Assembly (NCBI GenBank): GCA_902517815.1
Contig: CABYED010000009.1
Location: 1-59,419, forward strand
Length of the DNA stretch: 59,419 nt
Source: an uncultured SAR116 cluster alpha proteobacterium
GTDB taxonomy: Bacteria > Pseudomonadota > Alphaproteobacteria > Puniceispirillales > Marisalimonadaceae
Reading direction: 5' to 3'
In this document: positions 11,110 through 59,419 of the stretch, in pieces
Layout: each line of letters opens with the position of its first letter
Numbering within the stretch: the stretch's first letter is position 1
Made by a program: the position numbers and the translations under genes
The notes under the pieces: model-generated
What the model was told of the DNA's origin: nothing
The model's database searches: none
Seen by the model: only the letters and a program-made list of their open reading frames with translations

Positions 11110-12357
11110 CTAAGGTTGAATTAAAACAGCTCTAAAGTCATTTACATTTGTTAAGGTAGGTGAAGTAAAAATCAAATCGTCAATATTTTTAAAAAACTCA
11201 TATGAGTTATTAGCATTTAAAAAACTCATTGGTTTCATTTTCATCAAGGATGCTTTTTTTAGAGTTTCTTCTGAGACATATGCTCCAGCGTTATCCTTAA
11301 TACCATCAATCCCATCTGTATCAATTGCAAGGCAATTTATACCATTCGCATTTTTTAGGTGAATTGCCATTGATAGCATAAACTCAGTATTTCTACCTCC
11401 TTTACCATTACCCTTAATTGTTACAGTAGTTTCTCCACCAGATAAAAGTAATATTGGTTTCTGTAGGGTAATATCTTTATATTTTTTTTCTTTTTTAATT
11501 TTTATTGCTAATTCAGCCATTTTTTTACCTTCAATTATAGATTCTCCCTCAAGTGAATCTGAAATAATGATAGGTATGAAATCTTGTTTTTTAGCGGCTT
11601 CAGCAGCTTTTTTTAGAGCCATCATTGGGGTTGCAAGCATATATTCGGGAGATTTAGTTAATTTTGGTAATGTATTTTTTTTTATAATATCCCTTAATTG
11701 GTTATCAATAGAAATTTTATACTTTTCTAATATTTTAATTGAATCATCGTTTAAACCATTTGCTTGTATGGTTGGACCGGAACCAATATAAGCAGGGTCA
11801 TCTCCAGGAATATCAGATATCATATAAGTAGTAAGTTTTGCTGGAAAAATTGCTTGAGCAAGACGACCTCCTTTGATTTTGGATAAAGATCTTCTTACAA
11901 TATTCATTTCATCTATTGGTGCACCACAACGTAAAAGTTCTTTATTAATCCTTTGTTTTTCTTCAAAAACAACTCCTTTTGCAGGAAAGGTTAGTAAAGA
12001 AGATGCGCCTCCTGAAATAAGAAAAACTACATGATCGTCTTTTGATGATTTTGTGGCTAATTCAAATATTTTTTTTGATGCTATTAAACCATTTTTATCT
12101 GGTTCTGGATGAGAAGCTTCAATAATTTTTATAAATTTAGTTTTAGTATAATGACCATACCTTGTTATAACTAAACCTTCTAGAGGACCATCATAAGTAT
12201 TTTCGAATTCTTGTGCCATACTTGCACCTGCTTTACCTGCACCTAGTACAATAAGTTTACCTTTTGGTTTTTTAGGAAGAATTTTAAATTTACCTTTTGG
12301 TTTAGCAGCTTCAAGTGCAGAATTCATAATCAATGTTAGTGAATTTTTTAAATTCAT
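11110..12357 (-). CDS. gckA: glycerate 2-kinase (MOFRL family)
   Basis: A 415-residue enzyme expected to phosphorylate D-glycerate to 2-phosphoglycerate using ATP. Homologues were once annotated as hydroxypyruvate reductase TtuD. Visible are VLGAGKAGASMA near residue 36, the SGGASSL loop near 115, and the C-terminal MOFRL domain with SGGETTV and GKGGRNTEFML. In other bacteria it serves tartrate, glyoxylate or serine routes. Here it could also recycle glycerate released by the glucosylglycerate phosphorylase encoded 6 kb away (inference). It is transcribed alone, divergent from an enoyl-CoA hydratase gene. Confidence 0.85.
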   Translation of the reverse strand: MNLKNSLTLIMNSALEAAKPKGKFKILPKKPKGKLIVLGAGKAGASMAQEFENTYDGPLEGLVITRYGHYTKTKFIKIIEASHPEPDKNGLIASKKIFELATKSSKDDHVVFLISGGASSLLTFPAKGVVFEEKQRINKELLRCGAPIDEMNIVRRSLSKIKGGRLAQAIFPAKLTTYMISDIPGDDPAYIGSGPTIQANGLNDDSIKILEKYKISIDNQLRDIIKKNTLPKLTKSPEYMLATPMMALKKAAEAAKKQDFIPIIISDSLEGESIIEGKKMAELAIKIKKEKKYKDITLQKPILLLSGGETTVTIKGNGKGGRNTEFMLSMAIHLKNANGINCLAIDTDGIDGIKDNAGAYVSEETLKKASLMKMKPMSFLNANNSYEFFKNIDDLIFTSPTLTNVNDFRAVLIQP

Positions 12358-12446
12358 AATAAATTTGCAATTTTAGTTATTTTCTTAAAGAATGACTTCA
12401 TAAGTTTTTTAATTCAACCATAAAATAATTAAAGTATAGGAATAAA

Positions 12447-13241: not shown

Positions 13242-13256
13242 TGGCACATTGATTGC
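13242..13256 (+). promoter_or_regulatory. candidate sigma-54 (-24/-12) promoter
   Basis: TGGCAC at 13242-13247, five bases, then TTGC at 13253-13256 match the -24/-12 sigma-54 consensus with exact spacing. The predicted transcription start is 13268, which is the A of the transglycosylase ATG, so the mRNA would be leaderless. Three more matches of the same form stand at flagellar genes near the end of the window. Confidence 0.5.
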
Positions 13257-13267
13257 TTATAAAAAGC

Positions 13268-21527: not shown

Positions 21528-23237
21528 CTAAAATAAAAAATATCTTTGCGCCATGGGTAATTCAGTAGCCGGCTCACAGGTGAGAATTTCCCCATCAGCT
21601 GTAACTTTATATGTTTCAGGATCAACAGAAATGTCTGGGCAATAGTTATTATAAACCATATCCTTTTTTGATATGTCTCTTGTTTTCTCAACAGCAACAG
21701 TGTTTTTAGCAAGTTTTAATGAGTCTAAACTTCCAGATTTAATAGAATCTTTACTGACAAAAGTAATTGAAGATGTCTCTAGAGACCTTCCATAAGAAGA
21801 AAACATTGGTCTTGTATATACAGGCTGCGGAGTTGGAATTGATGCGTTTGGATCACCCATTTGAGCACAAGCAATACTCCCACCAAGCAACACAATCTCT
21901 GGCTTTACCCCAAAAAAAGCTGGATCCCATATCACAATATCTGCTCTTTTACCTTCAGTTATTGAGCCTATATGTTTAGATAAACCGTGAGTTATTGCTG
22001 GATTAATAGTATATTTTGCTACATATCTTTTAACTCTCACATTATCATTATCACCTTTTTCTTCCTGTAGACGACCTCTTTGGACTTTCATTTTGTGAGC
22101 TGTTTGCCAAGTTCTGATAATAACTTCTCCAACTCTTCCCATTGCTTGACTGTCAGAAGCTATAATTGAAAAGGCACCTAAATCATGAAGGATATCCTCT
22201 GCAGCTATAGTCTCTTTTCTAATTCTGCTTTCGGCAAAAGCAACGTCTTCTGGAATTGATTTATCTAAATGATGGCACACCATAAGCATATCCAAATGTT
22301 CTTCTAGAGTATTTATAGTATAGGGTCTTGTTGGATTGGTTGATGATGGTATTACATTTTCATTCCCGCATACTTTTATAATATCAGGAGCATGGCCTCC
22401 ACCAGCACCTTCAGTATGAAAGGCATGAATTGTTCTACTATTAATGGCTTTAATTGTATTTTCAACAAATCCACTTTCATTTAATGTATCTGTATGTATC
22501 ATTACTTGAACATCCATTTTATCAGCTACATTTAGACAATTATCTATAGCACCTGGAGTGGTTCCCCAATCTTCGTGTAATTTTAGTGCGCAAGCGCCTG
22601 CATTTACCTGTTCAATTAAACCTTCTGGTTTAGAAGAATTACCTTTACCCGCAAATGCAAGATTCATAGAAAAAGCATCCGCTGATTGTATCATTTTACC
22701 TATATGCCAAGACCCAGGTGTGCATGTTGTTGCCAATGTTCCATGAGCAGGTCCAGTGCCACCCCCTAGCATTGTTGTTAAACCTGAATGCAGAGCATCT
22801 TCAATTTGTTGAGGACATATATAGTGAATGTGAGAATCAAATCCGCCTGCTGTAATTATTTTACCTTCACCTGCGATTATTTCTGTGCCAGGTCCAATAA
22901 TGATATCAATTTTTGGTTGAGTGTCAGGATTTCCAGATTTTCCAATTTTTTGAATAATACCATCTTTAATTCCAATATCGGCTTTAAATATCCCATTTAC
23001 ATCAACTATCAGTGCGTTTGTAATAACTGTGTCAACGGCTCCATCTTTTCTTGTGACTTGTGATTGGCCCATACCGTCTCTAATTACTTTTCCACCCCCA
23101 AATTTTACTTCCTCGCCATAGACAGTTAAATCATTTTCAACTTCTATAAACAAGTCTGTGTCAGCCAATCTAACTTTGTCACCAGTCGTAGGGCCAAACA
23201 TTTCTGCATATGATGATCTTGTTATTTTTGAACTCAT
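21528..23237 (-). CDS. ureC: urease alpha subunit
   Basis: The 569-residue catalytic subunit, which hydrolyses urea to ammonia and carbamate. All active-site residues are present and in register with the family: His 136 and His 138 ([11 protein letters not shown]), the carbamylated Lys 219 (ALKLHEDW), His 248, His 274, the flap Cys 321-His 322, and Asp 362 ([12 protein letters not shown]). The enzyme should therefore be functional with two nickel ions. Its start overlaps the ureB stop by one base. Separate gamma, beta and alpha subunits are the normal bacterial arrangement. Confidence 0.98.
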
Positions 23238-50020: not shown

Positions 50021-50620
50021 TTAATTATTAATTTTTTTAAATAGTTTAATCGATAAAGACTGCGCATCAAACAAATCTTTTTCATTTAGGTTATTTAAAA
50101 TTTCATCTCTTTTATACTTTGCAGTTTTAATCCCTTGTGCCACAGCGATATTATACCAGGTGTAGGCATTAACTAAGTCTGGAGGTTCAATAAAATTTTC
50201 ATATAGTTTTGCTATTTGGATAATTGCCTTTTTATCTTTTACAAAGGCTCTTTTTTCCAAAAAATCTCTAAGTCTGGTTGTAATATCTCTAATTTGTTTT
50301 TCTGTTAAATATCCGTCCAACTTATCTAGAATGTTAGATGATTTTTTTAGTCCTCCAAGTAGTGCCGAAACCCCCCAAAAGTATGAGTTTTCAAAATCTT
50401 GTGGTATTAAATCTCCAGAAAATAAAATTTTAGAATATAGAAGTTGAGCATTTATATCGTTCTTATCTGATAAGATTTTTAAATTTTTTATTCCTTCTTC
50501 AAACTTTTTTTCTTGTAAAAGTGTGTAAATTGTTTGGAGACTTTGTTTTTTCTCATTGGCTAATGAACTAAATGGAACAAATAAAAGATATAAAATAAAA
50601 ATTTTTAATAATATTTTCAT
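50021..50620 (-). CDS. periplasmic Sel1-repeat protein
   Basis: A 199-residue exported protein: signal peptide of about 21 residues (MKILLKIFILYLLF, SSLA-NE), then TPR/Sel1-like helical repeats (NAQLLYSKILFSGDLIPQDFENSYFWGVSALLGG and PPDLVNAYTWYNIAVAQGIKTAKYKRDEIL). Sel1 proteins are scaffolds. Vibrio MotX, part of the polar motor T-ring, is also a small secreted Sel1 protein, so a motor role is conceivable given the location. The likeness is at repeat level only and not enough to name it. Confidence 0.7.
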   Translation of the reverse strand: MKILLKIFILYLLFVPFSSLANEKKQSLQTIYTLLQEKKFEEGIKNLKILSDKNDINAQLLYSKILFSGDLIPQDFENSYFWGVSALLGGLKKSSNILDKLDGYLTEKQIRDITTRLRDFLEKRAFVKDKKAIIQIAKLYENFIEPPDLVNAYTWYNIAVAQGIKTAKYKRDEILNNLNEKDLFDAQSLSIKLFKKINN

Positions 50621-50653: not shown

Positions 50654-51052
50654 TTATCTACCTGCTAACATTACTAATTGTAATTGAACAACCCTAATTT
50701 TAAAATTAGAATTTTGCTTTTTTTCATACACTATGATCTTTGGCCTATCAGAATTTGGTTTTTGAAATTCTAATATCATATCATCGGGTAAAAAAACACC
50801 ATTATCATTAAGAACTTGTCTAGGGTTTGATTTGAAGTTTTCTTTGAATGGCTTATCAATCCATATTCTTGCTAAAACTCTACCTAAAATATCTGGTAAA
50901 TATTTTTTAACCTCTTCTCTGTTTTTTAGTATTAAGTCTTTATCAACTAACTCAAGTGCTTGATTTATTTCATTTGGCTTGAACTTAATAGGGAGCTTAG
51001 GTTTTTTTTCATTGAATTTAACCAAATCTGTACTTTTAGATGGAACAGTCAT
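50654..51052 (-). CDS. nitrile-hydratase-leader (NHLP)-like protein
   Basis: A 132-residue protein without signal peptide. Its second half (about residues 58-105), VLARIWIDKPFKENFKSNPR then QVLNDNGVFLPDDMILEFQ, resembles the nitrile hydratase alpha-subunit domain that serves as leader of NHLP-type ribosomally made peptide precursors. The C-terminus ends with a short LQLVMLAGR, where such leaders have their cleavage motif, and no core peptide follows. There are no nitrile hydratase metal Cys residues (CTLCSC is absent). No modification enzymes are nearby. The gene is divergent from the hook/rod gene. Role unknown; the likeness is from memory. Confidence 0.5.
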   Translation of the reverse strand: MTVPSKSTDLVKFNEKKPKLPIKFKPNEINQALELVDKDLILKNREEVKKYLPDILGRVLARIWIDKPFKENFKSNPRQVLNDNGVFLPDDMILEFQKPNSDRPKIIVYEKKQNSNFKIRVVQLQLVMLAGR

Positions 51053-51147: not shown

Positions 51148-51162
51148 TGGCATAAATTTTGC
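51148..51162 (+). promoter_or_regulatory. sigma-54 (-24/-12) promoter of hook/rod gene
   Basis: TGGCAT at 51148-51153, five bases, then TTGC at 51159-51162. Spacing is exact for sigma-54. Transcription would start near 51174, 15 bases before ATG 51189 and just before its AGGAGA ribosome binding site. Confidence 0.7.
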
Positions 51163-51188
51163 TGCAATAAAAAAACAGGAGATGTGAT

Positions 51189-51992
51189 ATGTTATCAATT
51201 TTAAAAAGTGCCATTAATGCAAATAATAAAGAAATTGGAATAGTTTCTAATAATATTGCAAATGTTAATAGTACAGCATTCAAAAAAAGTAAAACAAATT
51301 TTGAACATATTTACTCAAGAGATAGATCCTCATCTCCAAGTAAATTTTCTGGTCAAGGGGTTGGAGTTAACGATCCACTTTTGCAAATGAGTCAAGGATC
51401 CCTTAAGACAACCAATGGTGCTTTAGACCTTGCTATAACTGGTTTAGGGTTTTTTCCAGTTGTTCATGAAGAAACTCTAGAAACGCCGTTTTTTACTAGA
51501 GATGGTTCATTTAACATTACTGCAACTGGTGAAGTGGTTACAAATGACGGATTAAACGTCATGGGTTTTCTTGGTGAGGATAATGAGGTTTTAACAAATT
51601 TAGTTATACCACCTAATAAAACAAATGAAGATGAAACTACATCCATGCTTTCAAATATAAATGTTAATTCAAGTGGCAAAATTACTGCCACTTATGGTTT
51701 TAGTGATGAAGTAATTATTGGAAATTTTATTCTTGCTTCATTTCCTAATGAAACTGGATTAAAACAAGTTGGTAATAATCGTTATCAAATTAATACAAAA
51801 TCAGGACTGCCAAATTTTGGCATTCCAATGGAGGATGCATTTGGTAAAATTGAATCTGGTAATTTAGAAAGATCAAATGTAGACATAACTTCCGAGATGA
51901 TTACTATGCTTAAAGCACAACAGGCATTTTCAGGCGTATCAAGACTTCTTCAAACAGAAGTTGACATAACAAAAAGATTAATTGACGGTTAA
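51189..51992 (+). CDS. flgF: flagellar hook/basal-body rod protein (FlgE/FlgF/FlgG family)
   Basis: A 267-residue axial flagellar protein exported by the type III system (no signal peptide). The N-terminal SNNIANVNSTAFKKSKTNFE is the rod/hook signature. QGVGVNDPLLQMSQGSLKTTNGALDLAITGLGFFPV follows, and the C-terminal NVDITSEMITMLKAQQAFSG heptad helix pairs with the N-terminus. Its length fits FlgF or FlgG; the GLNVMGF segment also resembles a short FlgE, so the symbol is tentative. It stands alone, driven by a sigma-54-type promoter, and converges on a 126-residue hypothetical gene. Confidence 0.8.
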   Translation: MLSILKSAINANNKEIGIVSNNIANVNSTAFKKSKTNFEHIYSRDRSSSPSKFSGQGVGVNDPLLQMSQGSLKTTNGALDLAITGLGFFPVVHEETLETPFFTRDGSFNITATGEVVTNDGLNVMGFLGEDNEVLTNLVIPPNKTNEDETTSMLSNINVNSSGKITATYGFSDEVIIGNFILASFPNETGLKQVGNNRYQINTKSGLPNFGIPMEDAFGKIESGNLERSNVDITSEMITMLKAQQAFSGVSRLLQTEVDITKRLIDG

Positions 51993-52004: not shown

Positions 52005-52385
52005 TTATAGCAAAGGAATAAAAAATTTATATTCTAATATTTCTGAAATTAATTTTTTTTCAAGAAACAAAATACCATTTTTGTTAATATTTAATTTATT
52101 ATTAATTGTTAATTCTAACCTTGCAGGCCGTTCATTCTTTATTGATAATTGTTTATTTAATGTATTGAAATAATCATCTTTTACTCTTATTGAGCCAGAC
52201 ATTACTGGCCTTTCATATTCTATTGTTATTTTATTTTGAAAATTGCTTTTTTCATTAGTAATCATAAGATTACATGTGCCTCTTGCAATGTTAAGAAGAC
52301 TACATGACAAATAAAAACATTGTATTTGATGCTTGCTGTCATAATGGGCATCTACTGTCTTTATTAGCATCTCTAATTTTTGCAT
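52005..52385 (-). CDS. hypothetical protein, last gene of flhA operon
   Basis: A 126-residue protein of unknown family that starts seven bases after the fliA stop. It contains YLSCSLLNIARGTCNLMITN, then strands such as NKITIEYERPVMSGSIRV and ARLELTINNKLNINKNGILFLE, so it may be a small beta-rich domain. No signal peptide. Operon position behind flhA-flhF-flhG-fliA suggests a flagellar role; an assembly or FliA-modulating protein is possible but unproven. Confidence 0.6.
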   Translation of the reverse strand: MQKLEMLIKTVDAHYDSKHQIQCFYLSCSLLNIARGTCNLMITNEKSNFQNKITIEYERPVMSGSIRVKDDYFNTLNKQLSIKNERPARLELTINNKLNINKNGILFLEKKLISEILEYKFFIPLL

Positions 52386-52392
52386 TATAAAA

Positions 52393-53103
52393 TTAATTAT
52401 CTTTTTTAAGTTGTTCTCTAATTCTTTTTATAGCAGAGGTTTTAATTTGGGAAACTCTTCCTGTTGTTACTTCCATTACTTCAGCGATTTCATATATATT
52501 CAATTCTTCTACAAAATATAATTGTATAACAAGTGCTTCTTTACCTTCTAATGTTTTCAAAGCTTCTTTTAAATTATCTCTGAGCTCTACCTCATTAACT
52601 TGTTCTTCAGGATTTAAATCGTTAGTGACAAACCAATTAGAATAATCGTCATATGTATCTTCTAAACTTTTTATAACACTTGCTTCAAAAGCATGAGACC
52701 ATTCTGTATATTTTTCAGACGACATGCCAAGCTCATTAGCTATTTCATTTTGATAGGGGTCTCGTCCTAATTTATTTTTTAAATGATTAATTGCTTTTTC
52801 TGAATTTTTTTTAATTAAGATTGTTGTTCTATCTAAATTAGAACTTTTTCTCAAATAATCTAATATTTCACCTTTAATTCTAATACTTGCATATGCAGCG
52901 AAAGAGGCATTTTTTTGGGGCACATAATTTTGTGCGGCTGAGATTAAACCTAGCATTCCTATTTGAATAATATCTTCAATATCGACAATAGAATTCACTC
53001 GTCCGTGCAAATGCCATGAAATTTTTTTAACTAAATTTGTATTATCATTAATTAATTGATTAATGTTTGGCTTAATAATTTTTGAATAATTGTTCATATT
53101 CAT
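52393..53103 (-). CDS. fliA: flagellar sigma factor FliA (sigma-28)
   Basis: A 236-residue sigma-70-family factor of the FliA type. Region 2 shows DIEDIIQIGMLGLISAAQNYVPQKNASFAAYASIRIKGEILDYLRKSS (about residues 42-90). Region 3 shows LGRDPYQNEIANELGMSSEKY. Region 4 has EELNIYEIAEVMEVTTGRVSQI near the C-terminus. It should direct late flagellar genes. It lies 17 bases after flhG in the flhA-flhF-flhG-fliA operon, the order seen in polar flagellates such as Vibrio and Pseudomonas. Confidence 0.93.
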   Translation of the reverse strand: MNMNNYSKIIKPNINQLINDNTNLVKKISWHLHGRVNSIVDIEDIIQIGMLGLISAAQNYVPQKNASFAAYASIRIKGEILDYLRKSSNLDRTTILIKKNSEKAINHLKNKLGRDPYQNEIANELGMSSEKYTEWSHAFEASVIKSLEDTYDDYSNWFVTNDLNPEEQVNEVELRDNLKEALKTLEGKEALVIQLYFVEELNIYEIAEVMEVTTGRVSQIKTSAIKRIREQLKKDN

Positions 53104-53120
53104 ACTTTCATAATTGTATC

Positions 53121-53897
53121 TTAATTATCAAAAAATTTAATTGAACCAGTTTTATTAGTCTCAACCATCAATAGTTTTGACGAAAGTTCATTGAAAGCTT
53201 TAGTTTCAATATTATTATTTTTTGAAGAAACTACTGCTGTTCGTGAAATAATTGAGTTTCTAATTTTTTGTGAGTTTGGAATTTGTCCGACGTATTTTAA
53301 GTTAACATCTAAAAATTTTTGAGTAATTGATTGAAATTTGTCAAAGTTTAATTTGGCTTGTATTGGTGATGATGCCATATTTATAATGATACCAAAATTA
53401 TTCATTTTATGATCTAAAAAAGAAGTTTTTATTAGAGTGTATGCATCGATGAAACTTGTAGGTTCACCTGTAATAACAACTATTATTTTGTCTGCTGATG
53501 ACATGAATGTCATGGATGAGGATTCTGCACCTGCACCAACATCAATTAACATGAATTCAGGTTTCTTTTTAAGATCATTAAAACTTTTGATAATTTTATG
53601 ACGCTCAAGGTCACTTAAATTTAATAGGTTATTTATTGCGTTTCCACCTGACACAAATTTTAAGTTACCATTTATAGTTGTAATTACTTTATCAATGGGC
53701 GAATTGCCAGTAACAAAGTCCTCTAAGGAATATTTTGGATTTATCCCAAGCAGAATATGTGCATTCGCCATTCCTAAATCAGCATCTAAAAGAAGCGTTT
53801 CTTTATTTTGTAAAGCTAAGCTTAAAGCAAGATTAACGGCTACTGTAGTTTTACCTACTCCCCCTTTTCCAGAAGTTATAGCAATTGTTGTAGTCAT
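53121..53897 (-). CDS. flhG: flagellar number regulator FlhG (FleN/MinD-like ATPase)
   Basis: A 258-residue MinD-type ATPase. The deviant Walker A ITSGKGGVGKTT is at residues 7-18, LLDADLGMANAHILLG follows, and FMLIDVGAGAESSSMTFM is the Walker B region. It sits directly between flhF and fliA, which identifies it as FlhG rather than MinD; it would limit flagellar number together with FlhF at the pole. The N-terminal activator helix (DQAxxLR) of gammaproteobacterial FlhG/FleN is absent, since the protein begins with the first strand; its binding to the master regulator may therefore differ. Confidence 0.92.
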   Translation of the reverse strand: MTTTIAITSGKGGVGKTTVAVNLALSLALQNKETLLLDADLGMANAHILLGINPKYSLEDFVTGNSPIDKVITTINGNLKFVSGGNAINNLLNLSDLERHKIIKSFNDLKKKPEFMLIDVGAGAESSSMTFMSSADKIIVVITGEPTSFIDAYTLIKTSFLDHKMNNFGIIINMASSPIQAKLNFDKFQSITQKFLDVNLKYVGQIPNSQKIRNSIISRTAVVSSKNNNIETKAFNELSSKLLMVETNKTGSIKFFDN

Positions 53898-53916: not shown

Positions 53917-55110
53917 TTATATACTAATGTCTTTCATATATTGTGCCAAAACTTCACTTTTGGCAAAAGCAATTGAACCAATAATTGACCTTGAGCCAGA
54001 CAAAATACCAATTTTACAATTTAATTCTGCAAAAATTGACAACTCTTCAGCACTTATGTGTGATTCATCTAATTTTGTAAGTGCGATAGTAGGAAATGAA
54101 TTTTTATAAAAATTCATCATTGATTTGATCATATTTTTATTAGAACTTGCGGGTATAGTTAATAAATTAGAACATTTTTTATTCAAAGATATTTTTTCAA
54201 GATAATCTAAGTAACCTGACAAATTTCTATTTTCTTGAGATACATCTATTATTAATTTTGATTTAATTTTATTTTCCTCAATAAATTGAATTAAGTCATT
54301 CAATGATGAAACAGAAGCTACATTTAAATTTAATAACTTACCAAAATTCAGGAGTTCTGAATAATCTGAGGATTTTGGACCAAAATTTATTATTGATAAT
54401 TTATGTTTTTCATTTTTAGAAAGTAAATTATCTAAAATATATGAAGAAATCTTCGCGCATAAGGTTGTTTTTCCAGAGCCTGTTGCCCCGTTTAAAAACA
54501 AAACATCAGAGTTTATAATCTTTTCCTCATAAGGAAAAACCAATTTTTTTGCCAAATGGTGATAAAAAAATAATTCTAAATCTTCAATTTCTATATTGTT
54601 AATTATTTTTTCTTGAAACTCAGATACAACTTTTTTTGAAAAACCTTTTTTTAATAAATCAATTGTTAATGAACTATTTTTATCTTTATTAAAATCGTCA
54701 ATATCAGAGATAATCATATTTTTTAGCAAGTTTTCTATTTGAGTTGTAAATGTCTTAAAAGTCTCCATGTCAACAAAATTTTTATCAAAATTATCACTTT
54801 TAGCCTCACTAATATTTTGTGAACTAGTATCATTTTTTATATTGTGATTTTTTATGAAAGTGTCAATTTTTCTAACCTTACAATCATTTTCTAAATTATG
54901 GTTCGAAAATAAGTGACTAAAATTATTTTTTTTCTTATAAATTTTTTTTACATTAGATGTAGCTATGTCTTCAATATTATTGGAACCTAATATTTCAATT
55001 TTTCCATTAATTTTTTGAGTTTTTAGTATTACAGCGTCTTTGCCAAGCACTCTTGAAATTTCATCCATTGCCGACAAACTATCATCTGCAACTACTTTAT
55101 GCTGTGTCAT
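53917..55110 (-). CDS. flhF: flagellar GTPase FlhF
   Basis: A 397-residue SRP-type GTPase that marks the flagellar pole. A long low-complexity N-terminal part (about 1-140, Lys/Asn rich) starts with the B-domain motif DDSLSAMDEISRVLGKDAVILKT. The NG domain follows, with P-loop LNGATGSGKTTLCAKI at about residue 205-220, LSIINFGPKSSDYSELL, LIIDVSQENR in the G3 region and a TKLDES guanine motif. The G3 Asp-x-x-Gly is altered (DVSQEN), which may weaken hydrolysis. It lies between flhA and flhG. Confidence 0.92.
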   Translation of the reverse strand: MTQHKVVADDSLSAMDEISRVLGKDAVILKTQKINGKIEILGSNNIEDIATSNVKKIYKKKNNFSHLFSNHNLENDCKVRKIDTFIKNHNIKNDTSSQNISEAKSDNFDKNFVDMETFKTFTTQIENLLKNMIISDIDDFNKDKNSSLTIDLLKKGFSKKVVSEFQEKIINNIEIEDLELFFYHHLAKKLVFPYEEKIINSDVLFLNGATGSGKTTLCAKISSYILDNLLSKNEKHKLSIINFGPKSSDYSELLNFGKLLNLNVASVSSLNDLIQFIEENKIKSKLIIDVSQENRNLSGYLDYLEKISLNKKCSNLLTIPASSNKNMIKSMMNFYKNSFPTIALTKLDESHISAEELSIFAELNCKIGILSGSRSIIGSIAFAKSEVLAQYMKDISI

Positions 55111-57259: not shown

Positions 57260-57353
57260 GACATCTCCTTAATTTTAAGTTCAAATAAATTACACAATAA
57301 AAACAATAGGTTATTTAATTTGAGTTTCATAATAATAATCAAAAAATAAGGAA

Positions 57354-57368
57354 GCAAAAAGAATGCCA
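57354..57368 (-). promoter_or_regulatory. sigma-54 (-24/-12) promoter of flhA operon
   Basis: On the minus strand the sequence reads TGGCAT, five bases, TTGC, an exact-spacing match to the -24/-12 consensus. Transcription would start near 57342, 83 bases before the flhA start codon. It is divergent from the flgP promoter 68 bases away. Confidence 0.72.
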
Positions 57369-57436: not shown

Positions 57437-57451
57437 TGGCATGTATTCTGC
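57437..57451 (+). promoter_or_regulatory. sigma-54 (-24/-12) promoter of flgP-flgT operon
   Basis: TGGCAT at 57437-57442, five bases, then CTGC at 57448-57451: exact spacing with one deviation in the -12 box. Transcription would start near 57463, 24 bases before ATG 57487. It also overlaps the upstream part of a longer frame, which excludes that start. Confidence 0.65.
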
Positions 57452-57486
57452 ATAAGTGTCTTGAAATAATTATTCAGGAGTATTTC

Positions 57487-58008
57487 ATGTCAATTATTAA
57501 ACGTAAAAATCTTTTAGTAGGTGTTACAACATGTGCATTATTTTTAAGTGCTGGTTGCTTGCAGAATTTAGCTAACTCAAATTTCTCACCAAAAAGTAGT
57601 TTTAATGCAAAACAAATTAATTCTGAAAGTGATGGTATAGTTGCTTTAAAAGAAGTATTTGATAGTTCAGTTGAAAAAATACCAACATTAACAGCTGTAG
57701 GTTATGCTGTTGTTTCTAGTCAACCAGGTAGAACAGATGCACAAAAAAGATTGATGGCCATTAGATCTGCTAGAATGGCAGCAATGAGAGAATTAGCAGA
57801 ACAAGTTCATGGTATTCAAGTTGATTCTAATACAACAGTAATAGATCTAATGGTTCAAAACGATACATTTAGAGCTGTTGTTAAAGGAATTATAAGAGGT
57901 GCTAAAACCGTAAGAATTAATCCTACAGGTGTAGATACTTATGAAACAGTTTTAGAAATTGATAAAGATATGATGCTTATGATGTTAAAAAGCGCAAGAA
58001 GAACTTAG
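57487..58008 (+). CDS. flgP: FlgP-like outer-membrane lipoprotein (LPP20 family)
   Basis: A 173-residue lipoprotein: basic start MSIIKRKN, hydrophobic stretch and lipobox LSAGC with Cys near residue 23. The mature domain shows LTAVGYAVVSSQPGRTDAQKRLMAIRSARMAAMRELAEQVHGIQVDSNTTV and VRINPTGVDTYETVLEIDKDMM, the LPP20/FlgP pattern. FlgP forms outer-membrane H-ring or basal-disk structures of polar flagella in Vibrio and Campylobacter (established). CAGGAG lies six bases before the ATG. It is followed by the FlgT-like gene and shares a divergent control region with flhA. Confidence 0.82.
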   Translation: MSIIKRKNLLVGVTTCALFLSAGCLQNLANSNFSPKSSFNAKQINSESDGIVALKEVFDSSVEKIPTLTAVGYAVVSSQPGRTDAQKRLMAIRSARMAAMRELAEQVHGIQVDSNTTVIDLMVQNDTFRAVVKGIIRGAKTVRINPTGVDTYETVLEIDKDMMLMMLKSARRT

Positions 58009-58017
58009 TAATATATA

Positions 58018-59172
58018 ATGAAAAAAATTATTTTAAAATTTATTAATATATATAAAATTTATATATTAATTGCGTTGTTAACATTGAATTTTCCCTTGCA
58101 TGCACAAGATAAATCTAATTTCAAACAAGTTGAAGCTACGGGCAGATCAATTTTACTACCTAAAAATATTGAAACTTCTAGAAAAAGAGCCTTAGAAGAT
58201 GCAATATACTTAGCTGCTCTAAAAGGTGGTGCTGATGTTAATGGATTTTCGGCCATTAGTTCAAATACTATAATTAATGACCAGTCAGTTATAAAGGCAA
58301 CTAATAGAGTACTTGATTTTAAAATTTTATCTGAGACACAAAATAAAGAATACCTGACTATAAAAATAAGCGCTATTGTAGGAAGTGAATTATCAAAAAT
58401 TGATTGTAAAATTAGACCAATAAATATTAATCTATATAAAGGATCAATTGCGGTTGATACAAGTGTCCCATCAGAATTAGCTAGATATACTTCTTTATGG
58501 TATAACAAAACATATGAATTTATATCTAAACAGCCAAACGTTGATATAAATAACTTTCAAAGTAGAAAACTTAGTAAAATTATTAAATCATCTAAAAATC
58601 CTTCTTTTGATTATAATGCAATTACTAAAGGGATACCGACAATACATCCTGGTAATTATAGTCTTGTTCCCAAAATAGCTCTAACAAAGATGAATAAAAA
58701 TAATTTTTCTAGTTATTTATTAACAATTTCATTTGACTTATATAAAGGACAAAGAATTAAGTTAGAAACATCAAAAAGCTATGATCTACTCATTAATTAT
58801 CAATTAGAAAGTAAATTCCAGTTCTTAAAAAATTTTTCTACATTGGATATAGATAAAATTGACCAAAATGTGAATAATCATTTGTCAAAGGTAATAAATA
58901 GTTTTTTTTATGATATTAAATGCATACCTTTAGAAGGCAAATTAACTGTAAATGAGGGTAAACTTCAAGTAGATCTGGGAAGCAAACAAGGATTGAAACA
59001 AAAACAAATTGGTATGGTGAATGGGATTAAGATTCAAAATTCTATGTTAAATGATAGTATACTAATAGTCCATACCGATGATGTTTTTGACAATCACAGT
59101 ACTTTGTTACCTTTAAATGATAATGTTAAATTAACAAACTTAAATAATAAGATTGTTAAATTTGTGGAGTAA
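58018..59172 (+). CDS. flgT: FlgT-like flagellar H-ring assembly protein
   Basis: A 384-residue secreted protein: signal peptide of about 29 residues ending PLHAQ-DK. The N-terminal domain has VEATGRSILLPKNIETSRKRALEDAIYLAALKGGADV, close to the FlgT N-terminal pattern (aromatic-x-G, then A-R-x-x-A-L-x-D-A). The C-terminal part (about 300-384), EGKLTVNEGKLQVDLGSKQGLKQKQIGMV, looks like the SH3-like FlgT C-terminal domain. FlgT assembles the H-ring in the periplasm of Vibrio. It lies nine bases after flgP. Identification rests on remembered domain patterns. Confidence 0.7.
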   Translation: MKKIILKFINIYKIYILIALLTLNFPLHAQDKSNFKQVEATGRSILLPKNIETSRKRALEDAIYLAALKGGADVNGFSAISSNTIINDQSVIKATNRVLDFKILSETQNKEYLTIKISAIVGSELSKIDCKIRPININLYKGSIAVDTSVPSELARYTSLWYNKTYEFISKQPNVDINNFQSRKLSKIIKSSKNPSFDYNAITKGIPTIHPGNYSLVPKIALTKMNKNNFSSYLLTISFDLYKGQRIKLETSKSYDLLINYQLESKFQFLKNFSTLDIDKIDQNVNNHLSKVINSFFYDIKCIPLEGKLTVNEGKLQVDLGSKQGLKQKQIGMVNGIKIQNSMLNDSILIVHTDDVFDNHSTLLPLNDNVKLTNLNNKIVKFVE

Positions 59173-59176
59173 TATA

Positions 59177-59419
59177 ATGAAAAAAATTAATATATTGTCC
59201 TTTTTTATACTATTTATTCTTTCTCTTGCTAAATTATCATTTTCAGAACCTTTTGTCGTTTTAGAGTATAGAGGAAATTCAGATCGTTGGAATTCGAGTT
59301 CCGACAATTTATTCTTAAAAGATTTAAATTATAGCGCAAATCACAAAGTTTTAAAAAATGAAACATTAAGCGATATTATGCTAAATTACTATGGTTCTAG
59401 CGCATTTAATAATAGAGTT
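59177..59419 (+). CDS. secreted protein with LysM-like segment, cut by window end
   Basis: ATG 59177 opens an 81-codon frame that runs to the window end without a stop. GGAG lies seven bases upstream. The N-terminus is a signal peptide (MKKINILSFFILFIL to SFS-EP). Residues about 55-75, HKVLKNETLSDIMLNYYGSS, follow the LysM pattern (V-x-x-G-(D/E)-T-L-x-x-I, Y-Y-G), which binds peptidoglycan. It starts five bases after the FlgT-like gene and is the third gene of that operon, perhaps anchoring the ring in the cell wall. Confidence 0.6.
   Translation, partial: MKKINILSFFILFILSLAKLSFSEPFVVLEYRGNSDRWNSSSDNLFLKDLNYSANHKVLKNETLSDIMLNYYGSSAFNNRV

Follow-up and report, generated by a model that had tools for sequence, protein, structure and literature searches.

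A flgP-flgT operon with a LysM-type third gene in SAR116 bacteria points to an H-ring with a putative peptidoglycan anchor

H-rings have been described from gammaproteobacteria, and the one alphaproteobacterium for which a 2026 review lists H-ring homologues is C. sphaeroides (PMC13023049). For the alphaproteobacterial Fla1 system of R. sphaeroides, it is reported that FlgT forms the H-ring and that FlgP is essential, while MotX and MotY are absent (PMC7277832). In the LPHT ring of Vibrio, FlgP, FlgT and FlgO make up the H-ring, and MotX and MotY the T-ring. FlgO is described as an outer membrane lipoprotein and MotY is thought to contact peptidoglycan (PMC7990780). Here, we describe an operon from SAR116, a group reported as ubiquitous in the surface ocean in a paper that does not contain the terms flagell, motil, flgP or swim (PMC12262181). 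The window, i.e., the whole stretch of 59,419 nucleotides analysed, is one contig (G000:C9) from end to end, which carries flgP, a flgT-like gene and, cut off at position 59419, a third gene for a LysM-type protein. We put the probability at roughly 60% that this is an H-ring operon whose LysM protein anchors the ring to peptidoglycan, thereby stiffening the motor and possibly taking over the role of MotY in wall contact. The genes which carry this reading are the following:

57487–58008, plus strand: flgP, LPP20-domain lipoprotein of 173 amino acids (aa), lipobox Cys24
58018–59172, plus strand: flgT-like gene, secreted periplasmic protein of 384 aa
59177–59419, plus strand: third gene, FimV-type LysM protein, secreted; first 81 residues, the rest lying beyond the contig end
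55139–57259, minus strand: flhA, divergent from flgP; FHIPEP at 799.6 bits

Both H-ring genes were recognized in profile searches. LPP20 matches the window FlgP with 31.6 bits (Pfam cut-off 25.9) and, since Cys24 follows a hydrophobic leader and is invariant in 20 of 20 members, the protein is predicted to be a lipoprotein; the FlgP profile detects the FlgP chain of structure 8z5n with an E-value of 2.2e-17. FlgT_N is found in the second protein with 39.7 bits (Pfam cut-off 28.8) and in all 29 members of its family, and by sequence the window protein is a distant FlgT. Thus, a first-pass annotation made from the letters alone was right in proposing a FlgP-like lipoprotein next to a FlgT-like secreted protein, and also in assuming a marine alphaproteobacterium, as the window FlgP is 95% identical to FlgP of genomes named SAR116. 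The FlgP and FlgT profiles match chains of the Vibrio LPHT ring, one of which is fitted by the FlgT model, and an alphaproteobacterial H-ring, a FlgP lipoprotein and a distant FlgT are common to R. sphaeroides Fla1 and the operon described here. We consider the H-ring identity of the operon well supported by homology and linkage; judging from the homologous Vibrio and R. sphaeroides proteins, FlgP in the outer membrane and FlgT in the periplasm would form a ring around the L and P rings.

The linkage was examined in 80 fetched loci of relatives. flgP and flgT occur together in 74 of them, the contigs of the other six ending inside flgT, and flhA is divergent from flgP in 77, the remaining three loci beginning at most 2.2 kb from flgP. 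The third gene is present in 72 of the 80 relatives and the other eight contigs are too short to hold all of it, which is why its position behind flgP-flgT is more than chance. In 69 loci the order is flgP-flgT-lysM-flgA-flgM, in three flgP-flgT-lysM. Flagellar linkage in relatives, which the annotation had made a check of its proposal, is therefore confirmed, both by flhA and by flgA-flgM downstream. Its three-gene operon divergent from flhA-flhF-flhG-fliA is correct as to the divergence, but too short, as the operon continues into flgA and flgM. This position, between flgT and flgA and often abutting or overlapping one of them, together with the small size and export of the protein, fits an assembly factor that would work with FlgA and recruit the machinery of the P and L rings, or an enzyme acting on the wall, to the site of rod passage through peptidoglycan. 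We regard such a role as unlikely, given that FlgP, FlgT and FlgA are present with no adjoining third gene in six genomes of one family (f24, see below) and in the non-alphaproteobacterial loci having flgA, and that the third protein is never found apart from FlgT in a sample of the class (six of six).

The nature of the third protein rests on its relatives, since the window copy is incomplete: its 81 residues have no Pfam match up to an E-value of 1, but they match the family profile, A1, with 92 bits (E-value 6.3e-26). A1 includes 27 complete relatives, all exported proteins of 141–153 aa. All 27 match TIGR03505 (FimV_core) at E ≤ 1, with a best E-value of 2.3e-8, although the cut-off is not reached (26.4 versus 43.45 bits for the L003 protein), and the predicted model folds as LysM. 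Thus, the LysM-type third protein of the first-pass annotation is corroborated. Either end of the mature protein has a short conserved peptide (consensus EPFVVLEY and IYFFGG), and about 34 residues remain C-terminal to the LysM domain. A lipobox is not conserved: a Cys occurs within the first 40 residues in nine of 27 members, at positions which are not shared. In a search of PDB sequences with the A1 profile, nothing convincing appeared up to an E-value of 1.

The best fold matches of the model are baseplate chains, and the matched stretches are presumably LysM domains, on which the structure titles are silent. Accordingly, the third protein might make no contact with peptidoglycan and use its fold as a protein-binding module, as is the case in baseplate hubs of contractile injection systems and phages. 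This seems improbable to us because the protein is exported and its sequence is nearest to FimV, whose LysM domain is reported to bind peptidoglycan (PMC12918733). The resemblance to FimV_core in 27 of 27 members, the adjoining flhF and flhG, and the report that FlhF and FlhG are among the clients of HubP (PMC12918733) could also indicate a miniature polar landmark of FimV/HubP type, which from its periplasmic position would label the pole and assist FlhF and FlhG in placing the flagellum. We give this very little credence, as an exported protein cannot contact cytoplasmic FlhF directly and as the short part following the LysM domain leaves the protein without the acidic cytoplasmic region and the TPR domain of FimV, neither of which was found in it. 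Full FimV/HubP identity was rejected for the same missing parts and the unreached FimV_core cut-off; the FimV-type LysM domain and export are shared, whereas FimV/HubP-like frames have 415–1807 aa. A further LysM-type protein, TsaP of the type IVa pilus, is reported to bind peptidoglycan and to colocalise with PilQ, the secretin in the outer membrane (PMC7545093). TsaP and the third protein are both of LysM type, but TsaP belongs to another machine. TsaP is longer than the third protein and probably also carries a FlgT-like domain.

The distribution of the operon was followed in 240 genomes sampled from the class, some of which are identical with genomes among the 80 relatives. FlgT_N was detected in seven, FlgP in the same seven and the third protein in six (E ≤ 1e-5); in the seventh FlgP genome, G104, the corresponding position is taken by a diverged version of 117 aa (E-value 2.5e-5). 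In searches of 72,556 plasmid records with tblastn, FlgT of locus L154 had no match, nor had the LysM protein encoded in L037, while FlgT of L196 had a single one, on plasmid pOA238_118 of Octadecabacter arcticus 238. There, flhA is divergent from genes for LPP20, FlgT_N and LysM-like proteins followed by flgA and flgM, and a Sel1 gene, motA and motB lie near the operon. The LysM-like protein (114 aa, L212 6198–6542, minus strand) is encoded between flgT and flgA and matches an A1-type profile with an E-value of 9.4e-8. As this gene was reached via the L196 FlgT only, diverged copies evidently escape searches with single proteins. It is missing from the gene table of PLSDB, but this table is incomplete and an annotation may exist in the original record.

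Beyond the class, FlgT_N was found in 30 of 329 genomes of a phylum sample. The third-protein profile matches 98 of the 329, but these matches, except in the window's own genome, are the long FimV/HubP-like frames mentioned above, nearly all hit over the LysM region only, and six example frames are all above the FimV_core cut-off. Where a genome has both, FlgT and the FimV-like match are on separate contigs or have about 56 kb or more between them. Sixteen non-alphaproteobacterial stretches were fetched, L161–L166 with weak FlgT_N matches and L167–L176 apparently from gammaproteobacteria, and the A1 profile had no match in any of the 16 at E ≤ 0.01. By eye, a 321-aa LysM gene was spotted in one of them (genome G524, L173 9573–10538), immediately behind an LPP20 lipoprotein gene and not far from flgT; as it appeared at an E-value of 5.8 in the A1 search, LysM proteins of other kinds could be missed. 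This gene is different and longer, so that rings of this kind may have acquired a LysM partner on more than one occasion.

Operons without the LysM gene were found in family f24, probably Rhodobacteraceae (the best named plasmid match of one of its FlhA proteins is from Octadecabacter, at 59%). FlgP is present in eight of its 80 genomes: in G361 the contig breaks off within FlgT, G579 has the LysM gene and the remaining six lack it. In these six, the order is as in SAR116, flgP-flgT-flgA-flgM with divergent flhA, except that flgT runs straight into flgA with no gene between, and the third-protein profile finds nothing elsewhere in these genomes below an E-value of 0.9. We infer that these operons are of Fla1 type, and R. 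sphaeroides Fla1 may belong to the group without the LysM gene. Family membership alone does not account for the split, as the gene is present in G579, in O. arcticus and, among the 80 relatives, in L047, L055, L061, L066 and L070, whose titles read Rhodobacteraceae or Paracoccaceae.

A tree of FlgP, FlgT, FlgA and FlgM was calculated for 44 loci, comprising 26 of the 80 relatives, 13 further alphaproteobacterial loci and five non-alphaproteobacterial loci as the root, namely those of L167–L176 with flgA and flgM beside flgP and flgT. Some of the alphaproteobacterial loci stem from one and the same genome, which was reached via two routes. L160 (FlgT cut), L192 (without FlgM) and O. arcticus were left out. 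The six loci lacking the LysM gene are placed among carriers, within a group of 34 loci (support 100) which excludes five basal carriers. This position suggests that the gene was lost in the six f24 operons, although loss could turn into gain under another root. The six do not form a supported clade (support is 95 for two and 100 for four of them), and since the nodes joining them to L154 are below 80, one loss or several are both compatible with the tree.

The mechanism we favour takes the third protein as a clamp. Exported to the periplasm, it would bind peptidoglycan with its LysM domain, while the peptides EPFVVLEY and IYFFGG at its ends would bind the ring by contact with FlgT or FlgP, so that the H-ring would be clamped to the cell wall and the motor stiffened. 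Such an anchor is the best explanation of domain, export and linkage taken together. In Vibrio, by comparison, a LysM gene is not part of the ring, and conversely a FlgO-sized protein and MotY_N (E ≤ 0.01) were not found in 26 genomes searched, many of which are incomplete. FlgO was not found in the window's own genome (89% complete) either; PF17680 (FlgO) does match in 13 of the 26, but in frames of 384–658 aa, except for one match in a frame broken by stops. The suggestion that the third member stands in place of FlgO is not supported, given its lack of a conserved lipobox and its place between flgT and flgA, FlgO being described as an outer membrane lipoprotein (PMC7990780). If the third protein replaces anything, the peptidoglycan contact of MotY is likelier, and the clamp could substitute for it.

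Several observations weigh against an anchored H-ring. FlgT_M and FlgT_C match none of the 29 FlgT proteins, and the fold of the FlgT model matches the FlgT structure 3w1e no better than HpaA and CsgG. Pfam LysM detects just seven of the 27 third proteins up to an E-value of 1; for the diverged version in G104, Pfam gave nothing up to the same limit, and NCBIfam a single weak match, to ActS (0.0058). Moreover, the third gene is as close to flgA, for the P-ring chaperone, as it is to flgT, and the six f24 genomes imply that it is dispensable in this kind of operon.

Further genes around the operon are:

53917–55110, minus strand: flhF; SRP54 GTPase domain at 36.2 bits, and gene order
53121–53897, minus strand: flhG (MinD/ParA type); ParA at 77.2 bits, and gene order
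52393–53103, minus strand: fliA (sigma-28); sigma-70 regions 2, 3 and 4 above cut-off
51189–51992, plus strand: flgF- or flgG-like rod protein; FlgE/F/G D1 and Flg_bbr_C above cut-off
50654–51052, minus strand: conserved 132-aa protein adjoining the Sel1 gene, seen in 55 of the 80 loci
50021–50620, minus strand: secreted Sel1-repeat protein of MotX-like size, in 51 of the 80 loci

The 132-aa protein has faint similarity to nitrile-hydratase-alpha and DUF6794, and its gene also adjoins three of the six f24 operons and is present in L154. Between flgF and fliA lies a gene for a conserved 126-aa protein without assigned function (52005–52385, minus strand, 64 of 80 loci), and in L003 the flgM region is separated from flgB by a conserved hypothetical gene encoded on the opposite strand (11985–12437, minus strand), as in 57 of 80 loci.

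The Sel1 protein is a candidate for a stator-recruiting part. A Sel1 domain was detected in 23 of 23 family members (up to E 0.1), and the MotX model NF047621 matches ten of the 23, with a best E-value of 1.1e-5 and 19.2 bits for the window copy against a cut-off of 330. Matches below 1e-50 occur in 14 of the 26 genomes, all within the 15 having FlgP (the copy in G630 has an internal stop); G628 has FlgP without a strong match, and weaker matches exist in two (G640, G643) of the 11 genomes that lack FlgP. The gene is also found beside three of the six f24 operons, in L154 and near the O. arcticus operon. It was not found in five loci of the basal clade with about 1.8 kb beyond flgF (L062, L069, L075, L079, L082), which disfavours the Sel1 protein as a fixed part. 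MotK was rejected as its identity, as the published description of MotK likens its N-terminal region to an AMIN domain and makes no mention of Sel1 (PMC10954123). A bolder reading would be a separate alphaproteobacterial scaffold ancestral to the operon, consisting of the FlgP/FlgT H-ring, a FimV-type LysM clamp and the Sel1 protein in the role of MotX, without MotY and FlgO, from which R. sphaeroides Fla1 would have lost the clamp; we hold this possible, but rather doubtful.

Two predicted promoter sites of sigma-54 type (GG-N10-GC) lie between flgP and flhA:

57437–57452, plus strand: sigma-54-type site, 34 bases before flgP
57353–57368, minus strand: second sigma-54-type site, facing flhA

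The strict pattern occurs five times in the window (0.25 expected), the other sites being 13242–13257, 22746–22761 and 51148–51163, the last just before flgF. Upstream of flgP, the strict pattern was found in 24 of 78 relatives, two of the 80 having too little upstream sequence. All 78 attain a looser score (at least 11 of 13 consensus positions) close to the called start of flgP, compared to 0.5% of shuffles, which were mononucleotide shuffles keeping base composition only; the relatives are not independent and the flgP start codons are uncurated.

The first-pass annotation had spoken of an undescribed outer motor scaffold. This does not apply to the H-ring as such, since an alphaproteobacterial one is reported from R. 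sphaeroides Fla1 (PMC7277832). In contrast, a LysM component of an H-ring was not described anywhere in the open-access literature searched (PMC), and this component and the breadth of the operon, with seven of seven FlgP genomes in the 240-genome sample and O. arcticus, look new. If SAR116 motors do have an H-ring with a wall anchor of its own, the H-ring would be more widespread than described, and the way in which an outer ring is held to peptidoglycan would become testable via one small gene.
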